Shown here piece after piece: positions 18,291 to 22,693 of a stretch of 64,000 nucleotides of DNA. The notes under the pieces are model-generated. The model was given only the letters and a program-made list of their open reading frames with translations, had not been told where the DNA came from and made no database searches. The stretch covers positions 62,001 through 126,000 of the forward strand of contig JABCZI010000013.1 of NCBI GenBank assembly GCA_013289765.1, read 5' to 3'. Position numbers and translations under genes: made by a program. The DNA comes from Acidobacteriota bacterium. Its GTDB lineage: Bacteria > Acidobacteriota > Terriglobia > Terriglobales > Acidobacteriaceae. Positions within the stretch are counted from its first letter, which is position 1; every line of letters starts with the position of its first letter.

Positions 18291-18534
18291 AGAGTGTCCC
18301 TTAAGTCCGCTCACTTCCAGGTGGCGGCGGAAATAACTCCCAAAATTTTTTGCCGAAAAATATTGCAGATTCTGGGGTGGTAGGTTCCCGCTGGTTTTTA
18401 CACTAGAAGAGGGCAGGAAAACAAGGTAAGAATGGACAGGGTGTTGCGCAAGTTAACGCGCAAGTTTCGTGCGCCGCGGCGAGATCGTGCGTCAGGATGC
18501 AGACGTGGCACTTGTTATCTGTGATGGCCCCAGG

Positions 18535-19074
18535 CTAAAGCCGCGCCGACAAACGAACCGGTACTGCGGGGTTCTGCAACCGGCCCAGCAGCATGGCCGC
18601 GCCGCTGAGTTGTTCGTAGCGTTCGACCACCCGCACGGCGGCAAACCCGGAGTTCGGCCAGGCCAGCGCGAGATAGATCCGTGCCAGCGCCACCGTAGTA
18701 TTGCGCCGCAACACCAGAGCGTCGTTCACTAATTGTCGCGCGGCCCCGGCAACACGCGCATCGCCACTTGCAACCGCAGCTTCGCCCACTCGTACCAGCA
18801 CAACCGCATTGCTCGCCGCGACATGGACATAGGCAGCCATGGCGCGCAAGCGCTCGCGACGCACCGCGCGAAATCGATTCGCAGGCAAGCGCCGCCGCAG
18901 GTAATCGTCCTCAGCGGGATTGATCAGGTTGCGGAAAGCCTCGATGTCGATCGGACGGATCGAGACCGCCAAGCCGATGCTTCTCTTGGCCTGCAAACTT
19001 TGCGAGACGGCCAGGCGCAAAATAATGCCCAGCGCAAGCGCAGCCGCCACAACGATAACAATGGCCAGATTCAT
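18535..19074 (-). CDS. membrane-anchored protein of unknown family (XRE/peptide locus)
   Basis: A 179-residue protein with one N-terminal helix (about 3-22) and a soluble, Arg/Ala-rich helical remainder with text such as PAEDDYLRRRLPANRFRAVRRE. The ATG overlaps the stop of the preceding seven-helix protein gene (ATGA at 19071-19074), so the two are made together and may form a complex. I do not recognise an enzyme motif. A sigma or kinase function is not supported. Confidence 0.65.
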   Translation of the reverse strand: MNLAIVIVVAAALALGIILRLAVSQSLQAKRSIGLAVSIRPIDIEAFRNLINPAEDDYLRRRLPANRFRAVRRERLRAMAAYVHVAASNAVVLVRVGEAAVASGDARVAGAARQLVNDALVLRRNTTVALARIYLALAWPNSGFAAVRVVERYEQLSGAAMLLGRLQNPAVPVRLSARL

Positions 19075-19841
19075 TGTTGTAGTAAACGCTCCAGTTCCCG
19101 GTTCCAGATGTCGAGATTATTCTCAGGCAGATGAACCGCCGAGGTCGCGAAACTGTTCTGCGGAGCGAGAAGGTAGTAAAACCAGATCAGGACACAGATG
19201 TGATACGTGGCCATGTTAAGGAAATCGAGGAGGTGACGACTTTGCAGTAGACCGCCATTTGCCATGACGGCCCATGTGGCCAAATGCACCGAAGACGAAA
19301 TGCCGCGGCCCAGCCCAATGCCGAGGGTCGCTTTGTCCCAGGTCAATTTAAAGCAAGCGGTGAATAGGAAGAGGAATAAGATGAGGCCGCATTCGACCAT
19401 GTACAGCGTCTGTTGCAGAATAGTTGCGCGGTATCCTATCGCGAACTGGTGACTGTCGACGGGCGCGTAGGCAGCTGCCAAGGTTGCGAGCAGCACAAAA
19501 ACTGCACTCATACAGCTGATCAGCCGACCACCCACTTTGGCGATCGCCGGCCGTGAGCGCAGCAGATGAAAAAACAATTCCCCGACAACAGCGAGTCGGA
19601 AGAGGCCTTCAATGATCAAGCCGACGGAGAAAACAACCCACCACGCCGTTACGCTGCCCAAAGGGACGACGTCCATCACATAGAGGATGGACTCCTCTGC
19701 CGCTCCGTAGACGAGGTAGGTAAAAAAAACCGGGAACTGCCGGTGAAGGCCCCGTCGCCACAGGAGTACGGCGAGCGCTGCTTGCAGCACGTGTGGGCCG
19801 ATCCACAGATAGTGCCAAAGCAATGAATGCGGCTGCAGCAT
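19071..19841 (-). CDS. seven-helix membrane protein of unknown family (XRE/peptide locus)
   Basis: A 256-residue integral membrane protein with about seven helices. A polar C-terminal tail (HLPENNLDIWNRELERLLQQ) should face the cytoplasm. The tail resembles proteins I associate with acidobacterial genomes but know no function for. It is coupled to the single-helix protein downstream. A 20-bp dyad (19899-19918) lies about 60 bases before its start and is shared with the upstream peptide gene and the regulator gene. A receptor or a peptide transporter are both possible; neither is shown. Confidence 0.68.
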   Translation of the reverse strand: MLQPHSLLWHYLWIGPHVLQAALAVLLWRRGLHRQFPVFFTYLVYGAAEESILYVMDVVPLGSVTAWWVVFSVGLIIEGLFRLAVVGELFFHLLRSRPAIAKVGGRLISCMSAVFVLLATLAAAYAPVDSHQFAIGYRATILQQTLYMVECGLILFLFLFTACFKLTWDKATLGIGLGRGISSSVHLATWAVMANGGLLQSRHLLDFLNMATYHICVLIWFYYLLAPQNSFATSAVHLPENNLDIWNRELERLLQQ

Positions 19842-19898
19842 ATTCGTGGCAAAGAACTATACCGCGATCCGCTGCAGCCGACAAGATCGGCACTGTGC

Positions 19899-19918
19899 GC
19901 GTTCGGTTTTCGTAACGC
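19899..19918 (-). promoter_or_regulatory. 20-bp dyad operator, copy 1
   Basis: GCGTTCGGTTTTCGTAACGC, with core GTTCGGWWTTCGTAAC, lies upstream of the seven-helix gene. The same core recurs at 20129, 21587 and 21700. The outer arms GCGTT/AACGC are a perfect complement. Confidence 0.7.
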
Positions 19919-19927
19919 AACCAGCAA

Positions 19928-20044
19928 CTACGGCCTGCACGCACCGGTACAGGTAGGGGTGCCATCGGCATGAGCGACAGTGGGACCAACGAAAGTATTG
20001 AGGAAAAGAATCGCTGCGGCTAGGACGAGCAGGGTACGTTTCAC
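19928..20044 (-). CDS. 38-residue secreted peptide precursor
   Basis: The GTG at 20044 is preceded by AAGGAGA with an eight-base gap, which favours it over the longer frame opening at 20155. The product has a basic start (MKRT), a hydrophobic core (LLVLAAAILFLNTFVGP) and an AHA signal-peptidase site. Removal would leave DGTPTCTGACRP, twelve residues with two Cys three apart. This is too short to be an enzyme; a signal, a metal ligand or a toxin/immunity peptide are possible. It has its own upstream dyad (20129-20148) and is followed by the membrane-protein pair. I know of no described family. Confidence 0.65.
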   Translation of the reverse strand: MKRTLLVLAAAILFLNTFVGPTVAHADGTPTCTGACRP

Positions 20045-20128
20045 GGTTATTTTCTCCTTGTTTGAAAAAGCGAACCGTGATACTTTCATGTCCTTCCGAC
20101 AGCGGAAAGTTACGTAAGGTCCTTTCTT

Positions 20129-20148
20129 TTGTTCGGAATTCGTAACAA
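20129..20148 (-). promoter_or_regulatory. 20-bp dyad operator, copy 2
   Basis: TTGTTCGGAATTCGTAACAA lies 85 bases before the peptide start codon, in the gap shared with the plus-strand gene at 20344. It matches the copies at 21587 and 21700 in 19 and 18 of 20 positions. Confidence 0.75.
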
Positions 20149-20343
20149 GAAACATCCCAATTCTGTCTGAATTAACCCCCTCAATGGCGCTACGAGATGG
20201 GCGCTTCGCGGTTCAAGTGCTAAGCGCTGCAATGTCTGTTTTTCTCTTTCATAATTGCAGCGGAACCGTGCTATTTTTAGGCTGCGTGTGTGGCGCAGTT
20301 AGCGCAGCGCCCCCAATAATTGCCAGAAAGTTGTAGCCGGGCC

Positions 20344-20763
20344 ATGACGCTGAAATCCGCTCTACAGGATCTGCGAGAAACTACGTTGGCCGCCATTTCC
20401 GGCCTCTTGGGGAAACTGTCCTATCTCGCATCACTGCGCCGGCGCGAGGGCGGATACCTGCATTGGGGTTTGTCGCTGGTCCACGGCGAAGAGTCTTCAG
20501 AAGGCGCGCTGAGGGCGGCTCAAACTGAGGCGTTGTCGAACGTGCTGCGCACGCCGATCTCGGAACTTGTGGAAGATTTGCGCGAGTCGAACCGAAACAG
20601 CGAAAAAACTGCGGAAGGATACGTCGAAAACATGCGGGAACAGTTCACAGAACTGCTTCCTTCCGCGGACGATGCAGCCTCGGCGGCGCATCTTAATTCA
20701 GTGCTGATTGCCCTTTCGAGCCTGGAGAAGGCCCAAAAGCCTGCCACTCCGTCAACTTCATAG
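20344..20763 (+). CDS. helical protein of unknown family (XRE/peptide locus)
   Basis: A 139-residue soluble protein from the ATG at 20344. A start 24 bases earlier is possible. It looks helical throughout: LQDLRETTLAAISGLLGKL, then YLHWGLSLVHGEE, then a second helical half rich in Glu and Arg. I do not recognise the family. Its last 71 bases overlap the 3' end of the XRE regulator gene on the other strand, a tail-to-tail arrangement that would pair the two messages. It diverges from the peptide gene, and dyad copy 2 lies between them. Confidence 0.6.
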   Translation: MTLKSALQDLRETTLAAISGLLGKLSYLASLRRREGGYLHWGLSLVHGEESSEGALRAAQTEALSNVLRTPISELVEDLRESNRNSEKTAEGYVENMREQFTELLPSADDAASAAHLNSVLIALSSLEKAQKPATPSTS

Positions 20764-21499
20764 CTATCCCTACAATCTGCCCGATAATTTCTGCTTCCTG
20801 CGGATGCCGCAACACCCGGATCGGAACCGGCGACAAGGGATGCGGCTGCAGCACAATATCATCCCGGCGCATGCTGCACCAGCAGCAGGTATGCCCTTCG
20901 CGCGTCTCCACAAAATAAATGGGACGCTCATACTCGCACCGCCACAATCCCTCCACTACTTTATTCTTTGCCTCATCCACTTGAATGAAACTTCCCGGCG
21001 GCAGAATCGGGTACATCGTGAAATCCTGGTTGCCGATGTAGCCATAAGTGAAATCGCTGTGGGCGAATTGCGCGAGATACGACAACGGCACCAGACCCCA
21101 CTGTTCCACCATGCGCCCGAGATTCGAGGTTCGTTGCTGATCGAAGCCGGGGTCCATGCGGATCGGCATCTGCACCGACGACAGCCCAGAGAGCGCCTCC
21201 GATACATGCGAGTGCGGTGGAGCAATCATCCCCAAATCCGCTGCCACATTGTTCAAGTCGACGCCGTACCACGCCATCAGTTCCCGTAAATCGCGGCGGT
21301 AGATTACCGCCAGCGAGTAGAGCCGGAAAATACTGGGCAGAACGCCCTTGGTTTCAATGTCCGACAAACGGCTGGGAGGAATTGAGTATTCTTCGTTGCG
21401 ATATTTCTCAGCCATGCGCGCGCTCGACATCTCAATATCGCGCATGGTTAACCCGAGTTTCTCGCGCAGGGTGCGAAGGCTTTTACCTGCAGGGAGCAT
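20693..21499 (-). CDS. XRE-family transcriptional regulator with S24-like C-terminal domain
   Basis: A 268-residue regulator. The ATG at 21499 has GGAGG six bases upstream and is preferred over 21526. The helix-turn-helix covers about 5-75 (LRTLREKLGLTMRDIE, then SRLSDIETKGVLPSI). Residues 160-260 resemble the LexA/S24 peptidase fold (FTMYPILPPGSFIQVD, then IGQIVGIAMKL). Where LexA has its catalytic Ser this protein reads Thr, so self-cleavage is doubtful and the domain may only dimerise or sense. TCCWC adds three close cysteines. Two 20-bp dyads lie 88 and 201 bases upstream, which implies autoregulation and control of the peptide and membrane genes. Confidence 0.83.
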   Translation of the reverse strand: MLPAGKSLRTLREKLGLTMRDIEMSSARMAEKYRNEEYSIPPSRLSDIETKGVLPSIFRLYSLAVIYRRDLRELMAWYGVDLNNVAADLGMIAPPHSHVSEALSGLSSVQMPIRMDPGFDQQRTSNLGRMVEQWGLVPLSYLAQFAHSDFTYGYIGNQDFTMYPILPPGSFIQVDEAKNKVVEGLWRCEYERPIYFVETREGHTCCWCSMRRDDIVLQPHPLSPVPIRVLRHPQEAEIIGQIVGIAMKLTEWQAFGPSPGSKGQSALN

Positions 21500-21586
21500 G
21501 CCACGCCTCCATAAAAGTGTTCGCAATCATAGCAGGGCGGGCTTTATTTGCACCTGAAATTATGATTAATTTTTGGTCAAGAAGAT

Positions 21587-21606
21587 TTGTTACGAAATCC
21601 GAACAA
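21587..21606 (-). promoter_or_regulatory. 20-bp dyad operator, copy 3
   Basis: TTGTTACGAAATCCGAACAA is an imperfect palindrome with half-site TTGTTNSGA, 88 bases before the regulator's start codon. It is inverted relative to copy 4, 113 bases away. Confidence 0.75.
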
Positions 21607-21699
21607 CGTTTCACCAGCGTCTGGAGCGGATGAATGCCAATATTGATCCGGAATACAAAGCCAGATCGCGGGAGTCATTATCGTTGTTTATCTGCAGCT

Positions 21700-21719
21700 C
21701 TGTTCGGATTTCGTAACAA
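21700..21719 (-). promoter_or_regulatory. 20-bp dyad operator, copy 4
   Basis: CTGTTCGGATTTCGTAACAA is identical to the reverse of copy 3 except for its first base. The two copies could allow looping or cooperative binding at the regulator promoter. Confidence 0.72.
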
Positions 21720-21757
21720 CAGGAGACCGATTTCGCAAAATCAACCCTGGAGCCGTC

Positions 21758-22693
21758 TCAGCCCTGCACGCCCGATTCTTCGCGCTCTACCCCGACTTCT
21801 TCTTTTTTCTCCGTTTTCGAGCCCCAGGCCATCCTCGGAGTGCTGTGCGCGATCCCCACCTGCCCCAGCCCGTTCAGCACGATAATCCCGCCATGCCCAT
21901 TCAGCCGCTGCTTTAGATAATTCATCGCCTCCTGCGCGGCCCATTCCGGCAAGTTCCCCGACATTACTCGGTCCGCCGTCCACTTGGCCAGCACCAGCTT
22001 CATGATTGGCTCGCCCCAACCGGTGGTCGAAACCGCGGCGCTCAGATTATCTGCATAGCAGCCGCAGCCAATTAGCGACGAATCTCCCAAACGTCCCGGA
22101 GCTTTGTTCAGCGTCCCGCCCGTCGAAGTCGCCGCCGCGATGTTACCCGCCGCATCCAAAGCCACGGCGCCGACTGTGTCATGGGAAATTGCCGGAGCGA
22201 ATAAATCTTTCCCTTCCTGACCAGCCGTATCCTGCTGATATTCGCGCAGCCGCTCTACCTCGCGCGCAATCACCAGGTCTTCGTTCTTGCACAACTCGAC
22301 GCCATGCTCGGCGGCAAAGCGCTCCGCACCTTCGGCGACGAAATACACATGCGGACTCTCACTCAGGATCTTGCGTGCGGCCCGCACAGGATTGCGCAAC
22401 CGCTCAACGCATCCCACGCCGCCGGCGCGCAGCGTTGATCCGTCCATGATTAGCGCGTCGAGCTGCACTTTGCCGTCGCGGTTGAGAAAGCTGCCGCGCC
22501 CCGCGTCGAAGGTGTCGTCGTCTTCCATGATGACGACCGCTTCTTCGACCGCGTCGAGCGCCGCGCCGCCGCGAGCGAGCACGCTCCAGCCGGCGGCCAT
22601 CGCGTTGCGGACTCCGTTAATGTGGGCATCGACCATGTCATCCGGCATGGCCCAAGCTCCCCCGTGAACTACCAGAACTGGATTGGTTGGCAT
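21758..22693 (-). CDS. iaaA: isoaspartyl peptidase / plant-type L-asparaginase
   Basis: A 311-residue Ntn-hydrolase precursor (family T2). It cleaves itself before Thr173 in ISHDTVGAV to give two chains. The freed Thr is the nucleophile that hydrolyses beta-aspartyl dipeptides and asparagine. Other hallmarks are VVHGGAW at the N-terminus, FDAGRGSFLNRDG, and STTGWGEPIMK in the beta chain. The tail after 290 is highly charged and unlike the family. The enzyme helps recycle damaged proteins in the cytoplasm. It is a single gene on the far side of dyad copy 4. Confidence 0.92.
   Translation of the reverse strand: MPTNPVLVVHGGAWAMPDDMVDAHINGVRNAMAAGWSVLARGGAALDAVEEAVVIMEDDDTFDAGRGSFLNRDGKVQLDALIMDGSTLRAGGVGCVERLRNPVRAARKILSESPHVYFVAEGAERFAAEHGVELCKNEDLVIAREVERLREYQQDTAGQEGKDLFAPAISHDTVGAVALDAAGNIAAATSTGGTLNKAPGRLGDSSLIGCGCYADNLSAAVSTTGWGEPIMKLVLAKWTADRVMSGNLPEWAAQEAMNYLKQRLNGHGGIIVLNGLGQVGIAHSTPRMAWGSKTEKKEEVGVEREESGVQG

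Follow-up and report, generated by a model that had tools for sequence, protein, structure and literature searches.

In the AgrD/AgrC and ComX/ComP systems of Firmicutes, a short secreted peptide and its adjacent membrane receptor diversify together and are encoded in an autoregulated operon; the maturases of the AgrB type are membrane proteins with a catalytic Cys and a His. The yeast α-factor is made from a precursor with a signal peptide, sometimes with tandem mature units, and has a dedicated N-out/C-in seven-transmembrane (7TM) receptor, Ste2, the pair being hypervariable between species. In RRNPP/Rgg systems, the gene of a helix-turn-helix (HTH) regulator lies close to that of a small secreted peptide. 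Acidobacteria belong to the most abundant bacteria of soils, and neither peptide signalling in these organisms nor a system like the one reported here is described in the titles and opening parts of abstracts that our searches of open-access literature brought up. Here we analyse a locus in a 64,000-nucleotide stretch of an Acidobacteriota genome (the window; assembly GCA_013289765.1, contig JABCZI010000013.1, positions 62,001 to 126,000), whose nearest relatives suggest that it belongs to Candidatus Sulfotelmatobacter (hereafter the genus). The locus holds genes for a precursor peptide, a 7TM protein, its neighbour p179, a helical protein (hel) and an HTH regulator. It is probably a peptide-signalling cassette, made up of a secreted peptide ligand, a dedicated 7TM receptor, p179 as its partner and an autoregulated HTH regulon.

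Apart from the maturase, the cassette shares with each of these systems the features named above, the 7TM protein being the presumed receptor, and departs from each of them. Unlike the yeast pair, it is bacterial, its receptor and peptide genes are adjacent, it is not known to work with a G protein, for which no search was made, and the fold match is weak; searches of Pfam and the PDB found no sequence relation of the 7TM protein to Ste2 or to G-protein-coupled receptors (GPCRs). Unlike the Firmicutes systems, it has a 7TM protein without a kinase domain (Pfam, 55 members), no maturase gene that we could recognise, a peptide with a Sec-type signal peptide and a Gram-negative host. In contrast to AgrB-type maturases, the 7TM protein has neither Cys nor His among the residues conserved in at least 90% of its members. 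The regulator differs from RRNPP/Rgg proteins in that 16 regulators matched HTH families only and no TPR (Pfam, E ≤ 0.1, a threshold at which a fainter TPR fold is possible), and in that, within the genus, the peptide covaries with the 7TM protein and not with the regulator. Microbial rhodopsins and GPCRs have a seven-helix bundle too, but the cassette 7TM protein matches no such Pfam family. The pattern of peptide and 7TM protein points to a bacterial peptide-signalling system not described before.

Results

A small secreted-peptide gene precedes the 7TM gene

A candidate small secreted-peptide gene ahead of the 7TM gene was found by a permissive rule in 127 of 137 7TM loci, giving 105 distinct sequences. 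A strict rule, which asked for a perfect AAGGAG and a hydrophobic core of at least 9 in 12, and two controls, the reverse complement and the region upstream of the regulator, were applied to the 136 loci with enough sequence (135 for the second control). Under the strict rule the peptide gene precedes the 7TM gene in 103/136 loci against 0/136 and 0/135 in the controls, and under the permissive rule in 126/136 against 17/136 (reverse complement) and 29/135 (upstream of the regulator). Among 36 distinct congeneric genes, the signal part (codons 2–27) shows 0.238, 0.163 and 0.572 differences at the first, second and third codon positions, as expected of a coding region on which purifying selection acts. 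The gene for the peptide is thus real, and it is widespread.

The tail that follows the signal peptide is short, variable and usually holds two Cys. Among 98 distinct precursors whose Shine-Dalgarno score is 5 or 6, exactly two Cys come after residue 22 in 91, none in 5, four in one and six in one, and in the 93 with at least two the first two lie 2–7 residues apart. This number and spacing of Cys, together with the outer membrane that stands between cells, would suit a cell-autonomous periplasmic ligand that reports redox state, metal or an envelope condition to the 7TM protein and carries nothing between cells. We regard this as unlikely, both because some precursors have no Cys (the five above and those of loci L294, L295, L309 and L340) and because the peptides are hypervariable at the species level, which a sensor of common chemistry would not need. 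The metal or redox ligand proposed in a preliminary description of this DNA is rejected as the general role because Cys-free precursors exist, both repeat precursors of the window genome among them.

Several precursors hold tandem copies of a unit: two of VQGPxPDGGMIPTHPK (L294), two of DGPGLPPVKSTTSAA (L295), two in L309, three of GGGPxPxCDPxxC (L084) and five of AxNMPVFPTPPAVKT (L340). An internal repeat of at least 8 residues occurs in one of the 98 distinct type I precursors (L084), against 0.0 expected from shuffles; of 500 shuffles of each of the others, any repeat of that length arose in 2 (L294), 1 (L295), 0 (L309) and 78 (L340), the L340 precursor being long and of low complexity, yet with its five units plain. 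At L340, the precursor with five repeats lies upstream of two consecutive 7TM matches, one of them truncated where the locus ends, and another copy of the precursor is largely read as N. Two copies of the peptide gene are present at L304, and two to three tandem genes with a common C-terminal mature part at L323, L326, L329, L334, L335 and L339.

The cassette is conserved in the genus and in related Terriglobia

Peptide, regulator and membrane genes co-occur in related genomes, and the cassette is conserved in Candidatus Sulfotelmatobacter and related Terriglobia. Relatives of the regulator were present in 107 and of the 7TM protein in 144 of 200 genomes of the family. In 101 loci picked as regulator matches (the window included, and 16 of them deep regulator paralogues), a 7TM gene was found in 72, p179 in 73 and hel in 78. 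Among the best 80 of 117 relatives, in which some misses are cut by contig ends, the 7TM protein was found in 65 loci (67 matches), p179 gave 69 matches and hel was found in 77 loci (78 matches). In the cassettes p179 comes after the 7TM gene. A sample of the phylum had the 7TM protein in 31 of 297 genomes, 29 of them in the family of the window and the two outside it weak.

Another set of 31 loci was examined. Of these, 22 belong to more distant genera (L322–L343) once known cassettes, genus g55 and another family are left out, and 14 of the 22 have a candidate peptide, as do both loci of g55; the single locus of the other family does not. In genus g50 (L086, L087, L092–L094, L099) the order is rearranged, with peptide, 7TM and p179 genes upstream of the regulator and ending about 1.4–2.5 kb before it. 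The 16 deep regulator paralogues (L120–L122, L124–L136) gave no 7TM or p179 match; in 14 of these loci there is a long divergent regulator-like open reading frame (ORF; for example L122:998-2549), which in L122 looks like a tandem fusion of two regulators.

The mature peptide covaries with the outer half of the 7TM protein

The covariation set was drawn from the 137 7TM loci by requiring a Shine-Dalgarno score of at least 5 and near-full-length 7TM, p179 and regulator proteins, with one locus kept per regulator sequence, which left 87 loci, 34 of them in the genus. A simple text rule served to separate the mature parts, and the distance between mature peptides was compared with that between 7TM proteins, with the regulator and p179 distances held fixed. 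Within the genus (n = 34), the partial correlation of the mature peptide with the 7TM protein is 0.551 (p 0.0005), while it is −0.108 with p179 and 0.052 with the regulator, and that of the signal peptide with the 7TM protein is 0.08 (p 0.13). Over all 87 loci the mature peptide gives 0.473 with the 7TM protein and −0.318 with the regulator; for the remaining 53, from other genera, the values are 0.308 (7TM), −0.003 (p179) and −0.198 (regulator).

The correlation lies in the outer half of the 7TM protein. In the genus, the outer half given the inner reaches 0.417 (p 0.0005) and the inner given the outer 0.064 (p 0.22), and over all 87 loci the values are 0.464 and −0.004. Random column labellings attained this contrast in 27/1000 cases in the genus and in 0/1000 in all 87 loci, and circular shifts in 1/255 in each. 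In genus sets thinned to n = 31 and n = 21, the outer and inner values are 0.385/0.105 and 0.341/0.040. The candidate ligand and the outer part of its candidate receptor thus co-diversify. Of the statement in the preliminary description that the regulon makes, exports or senses a small peptide, sensing gains support from the covariation with the 7TM protein, and export by the membrane genes does not, because the peptide has a signal peptide of its own.

A membrane immunity protein would likewise covary with a toxin on its outer face, so the same data have to be read against a bacteriocin system, in which the peptide is a narrow-spectrum toxin, the 7TM protein (with p179) protects the producer and both diversify together. 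The 86 distinct predicted mature peptides, however, have a mean net charge of −0.36, with none at or above +2, and a mean GRAVY (grand average of hydropathy) of −0.53, unlike usual antimicrobial peptides. Immunity genes are usually patchy, whereas the type II 7TM protein described below is near-core, being present in 42 of 45 genus genomes. The PADLOC models of anti-phage defence systems gave no match for four cassette proteins, and the tandem-repeat precursors would fit a ligand better. A bacteriocin with its immunity protein is therefore an improbable account, if the least improbable of the rivals considered here.

Structure and family of the 7TM protein

The AlphaFold2 model of the 7TM protein (mean predicted local distance difference test, pLDDT, 90.4) consists of seven long helices followed by helix 8 at the C-terminus. 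Because the intracellular loops hold five Lys and Arg residues and the extracellular loops none, the positive-inside rule predicts an N-out/C-in topology. In an alignment of 55 members, the extracellular loops are the most variable part (entropy 2.69 bits), while helix 8 (1.27 bits) is less variable than loops, tail and membrane halves; the outer and inner halves of the transmembrane (TM) helices differ in variability with p 0.0008 over all 55 rows. The Foldseek matches were weak and mainly to microbial rhodopsins and GPCRs, with a TM-score by query length of 0.19–0.56 in the best 50 of 274 (E ≤ 10). A sequence search of the PDB gave one match (E 0.045, named PsbY).

As the 7TM gene adjoins the peptide gene, its product could instead be an AgrB-like maturation protease or an exporter of the peptide. 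Pfam matches at E ≤ 0.01 among the 55 members amount to two weak ones to AgrB, in two proteins (best E 0.0033), with no histidine kinase domain and no rhodopsin or GPCR family, and the window protein matches the NCBIfam PACE efflux transporter at E 0.01 and 15.9 bits, where the cut-off is 80. The residues conserved in at least 90% of the members, however, are L12, W13, P16, P37, F39, E88, G152, G174, G178, V217, W220, W246, N247, E249 and L250, with no Cys, His, Ser or Asp among them; the precursor brings its own signal peptide; and in the genus it is the mature part, and not the leader, that covaries, and it does so with the outer half. We consider a protease or exporter very unlikely.

The model of p179 (pLDDT 86.5) has one TM helix and a helical domain, and its fold search gave no useful match. 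For 7TM, p179 and hel, the scans made with Pfam, NCBIfam and PADLOC yielded no convincing family. Pfam matches of hel to ApoLp-III (E 0.048) and TEX47 were judged to be chance, as were those of 2/23 hel relatives, with one match each, and of 1/47 p179 relatives to DUF3754.

Operators and regulon

The four exact copies of GTTCGGWWTTCGTAAC at the locus are its sole matches in the window even when 3 mismatches are allowed, and 4 of 100 shuffles reach as many matches at 3 mismatches. In the whole 4.8-Mb genome there are 7 exact GTTCGGNNNTCGTAAC, 4 of these at the locus. The preliminary description had expected that the dyad would not be randomly spread, which is borne out for near-exact sites, as KTTCBGNWWTCGTAAC matches 275 times across 45 genus genomes and its reversed control 11 times, and fails for the loose dyad (up to 2 mismatches), with 98 matches in the genome against 169 for the reversed control. 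Because the loose dyad is not enriched, only near-exact, A/T-centred sites are informative.

In the 36 genus cassettes a site lies within 250 nt upstream of the regulator in 36 and within 160 nt upstream of the peptide gene in 34 (at most 1 mismatch; controls 0 and 0/36), and in the gap between peptide and 7TM genes in 33 (at most 2 mismatches; control 0). When 2 mismatches are allowed, 32/36 regulators are preceded by at least two sites, and the two regulator operators are spaced 112–114 nt in 7 congeners. In 68 cassettes of other genera, at the same 2 mismatches, a site was found at the regulator in 27, at the peptide in 11 and in the peptide–7TM gap in 2 (controls 1, 0 and 1), so that this last site is a feature of the genus. 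From the placement of the operators, we infer that this regulator binds them. The single regulon proposed in the preliminary description is supported, and so are conserved synteny and a non-random spread of near-exact operators.

To survey the content of the regulon, we examined 69 loci with operator matches, which cover some of the 275. The 110 ORFs close to operators include 10 clusters found in more than one genome, and two of these clusters are the cassette itself. The other eight recur in just two or three genomes each, so that the wider regulon is weakly conserved; they include, by eye, CRP-like, LuxR-like, papain-like protease and acetyltransferase-like proteins, among others. In two genomes (L185, at G000:C2:306070, and L168) an operator precedes a gene for a papain-like cysteine protease, again by eye. 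A scan of L144–L212 for orphan peptides (two Cys and a strong hydrophobic core) yielded a single cassette (L161) and a single unrelated ORF (L210) and missed the type II peptide beside the L160 operator (the same as L296). The scan was too strict, and more orphan peptides may therefore exist.

Further peptide and 7TM modules in the same genome

The locus of the preliminary description is real, but it is not alone, since the window genome has three 7TM genes, each adjoining its own precursor. Both extra modules have tandem-repeat precursors without Cys: an operator-like site and the two-unit precursor given above come after the second 7TM gene (L294), and the third (L295/L346) is preceded by its two-unit precursor and then has its own p179 relative. 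In a set of 22 loci, 21 have a candidate peptide, and at the one miss (L302) the upstream part is cut by the contig end.

In the type II modules of the genus, a peptide is present in 28 of 30 loci. A site lies shortly after the 7TM stop in 12/30 at up to 2 and in 24/30 at up to 3 mismatches, the latter count standing against an estimate of about 0.1 chance sites per locus, with no control set. The outer-half result is repeated in this second paralogue pair, type II (n = 28, uncorrected for regulator and p179), where the outer half gives 0.389 (p 0.0007) and the inner 0.166 (p 0.08), and the mature part with the signal peptide held fixed gives 0.285 with the outer half (p 0.013). Within a few kb around it the type II 7TM gene has no dedicated partner, and its neighbours are generic.

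Genes of the locus

Every feature named in the preliminary description was confirmed at its place (Table 1): the secreted-peptide gene of 38 codons, the two coupled membrane genes, the genes for the helical protein and the HTH regulator, and the four operators. The precursor translates as MKRTLLVLAAAILFLNTFVGPTVAHA followed by DGTPTCTGACRP, with the cleavage point set by eye. The 7TM stop and the p179 start overlap by 4 nt. The 3' ends of the regulator and hel overlap convergently by 71 nt of coding sequence (20693–20763), an arrangement visible in many homologous loci (uncounted). Despite the overlap hel is a real gene, because in 35 distinct genus genes its differences per codon position (0.235, 0.147 and 0.542) resemble those of the peptide gene. 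The regulator probably starts at M10 rather than at the start of its longest ORF, as the homologue alignment begins near residue 14. Its description as S24-like finds no support in Pfam, where none of 16 regulators matches an S24 family (E ≤ 0.1) and 15/16 match HTH_3. The likeness of the C-terminal domain to the S24 type is by eye, and a sequence search of the PDB gave no match for the regulator. An Rfam scan of 18300–22000 gave no match.

Table 1 Genes and operators of the cassette, in window coordinates.
Feature	Position	Strand	Description
p179	18535..19074	−	179 aa, single TM helix at the N-terminus, then a helical domain (presumed cytoplasmic)
7TM, candidate peptide receptor	19071..19841	−	256-aa seven-helix membrane protein, predicted N-out/C-in, C-terminal amphipathic helix 8
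Operator between peptide and 7TM genes	19901..19916	+	exact GTTCGGWWTTCGTAAC
Precursor peptide gene	19928..20041	−	38 codons, GTG start, Shine-Dalgarno AAGGAG, signal peptide and predicted mature DGTPTCTGACRP
Operator between peptide and hel genes	20131..20146	+	exact GTTCGGWWTTCGTAAC
hel	20344..20763	+	139-aa conserved helical protein, divergent from the peptide gene (homologue alignment)
Regulator	20693..21499	−	HTH (XRE-type) and a conserved C-terminal domain without family; longest ORF starts at 21526, probable start M10 at 21499
Regulator-proximal operator	21589..21604	−	exact GTTCGGWWTTCGTAAC
Second regulator operator	21702..21717	+	exact GTTCGGWWTTCGTAAC; opposite orientation, 113 nt further upstream

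Discussion

We read the peptide and the 7TM protein as ligand and receptor because a secreted, hypervariable peptide, in places repeated within its precursor, is encoded beside a 7TM protein whose outer face diversifies with it, within an autoregulated regulon. The 38-residue precursor would leave the cytoplasm through Sec and be trimmed to a short mature form, for which DGTPTCTGACRP is the probable sequence here; a disulfide may close it into a loop. This peptide would pass between cells and bind the helix bundle at its outer half, and the signal would be passed on inwards by the inner half, which is conserved, by helix 8 and by the coupled p179. A role in the cassette is presumed for hel as well. 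The HTH regulator, as activator or repressor, would act on GTTCGGWWTTCGTAAC operators in three places, namely its own promoter, the divergent peptide/hel promoter and the stretch before the 7TM gene, which would close a feedback loop, and may also control the second peptide module and scattered genes.

Several observations weigh against this reading. Under the permissive rule 10 of the 137 7TM loci have no peptide, a few of the passes look spurious (L289, L143), and 8 of the 22 loci of more distant genera gave none. The locus sets overlap and the loci are not all independent, for which reason the distance tests were made on distinct sequences; partial Mantel tests have inflated false-positive rates, and linked recombination of adjacent DNA could contribute to the correlation. 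The signal peptide also tracks the 7TM protein over all 87 loci (0.313) and in the 53 of other genera (0.256), and tracks the outer half in type II (0.287, p 0.015), and p179 weakly tracks the mature peptide over all 87 loci (0.157). In the most thinned genus set (n = 14) the contrast between outer and inner halves narrows to 0.328 vs 0.196, and within the 27 genus rows the two halves do not differ significantly in variability (p 0.18). None of the rhodopsin and GPCR fold matches reaches E ≤ 0.001. The operators are much less conserved outside the genus. The type II modules have no adjoining p179, the genome having only two p179 genes, and the output path is therefore not uniform.

Taken further, the cassettes would make the Terriglobia an independent counterpart of pheromone and GPCR signalling, with secreted precursors, in some cases repeats of up to five units, and dedicated kinase-less seven-helix receptors of a rhodopsin- or GPCR-like kind. 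Each cell would have several private channels, two or more of which belong to a single HTH regulon, and would use them to communicate with its kin or its own species. This wider proposal is tentative, and we would put its chances at slightly under even. If the ligand–receptor reading is true, these bacteria hold a large set of peptide ligands and of receptors without a fitting Pfam family, and a 7TM peptide receptor that works without a kinase would be added to those of bacteria. The hypervariability of the pairs would then make their specificity directly testable by receptor swaps.

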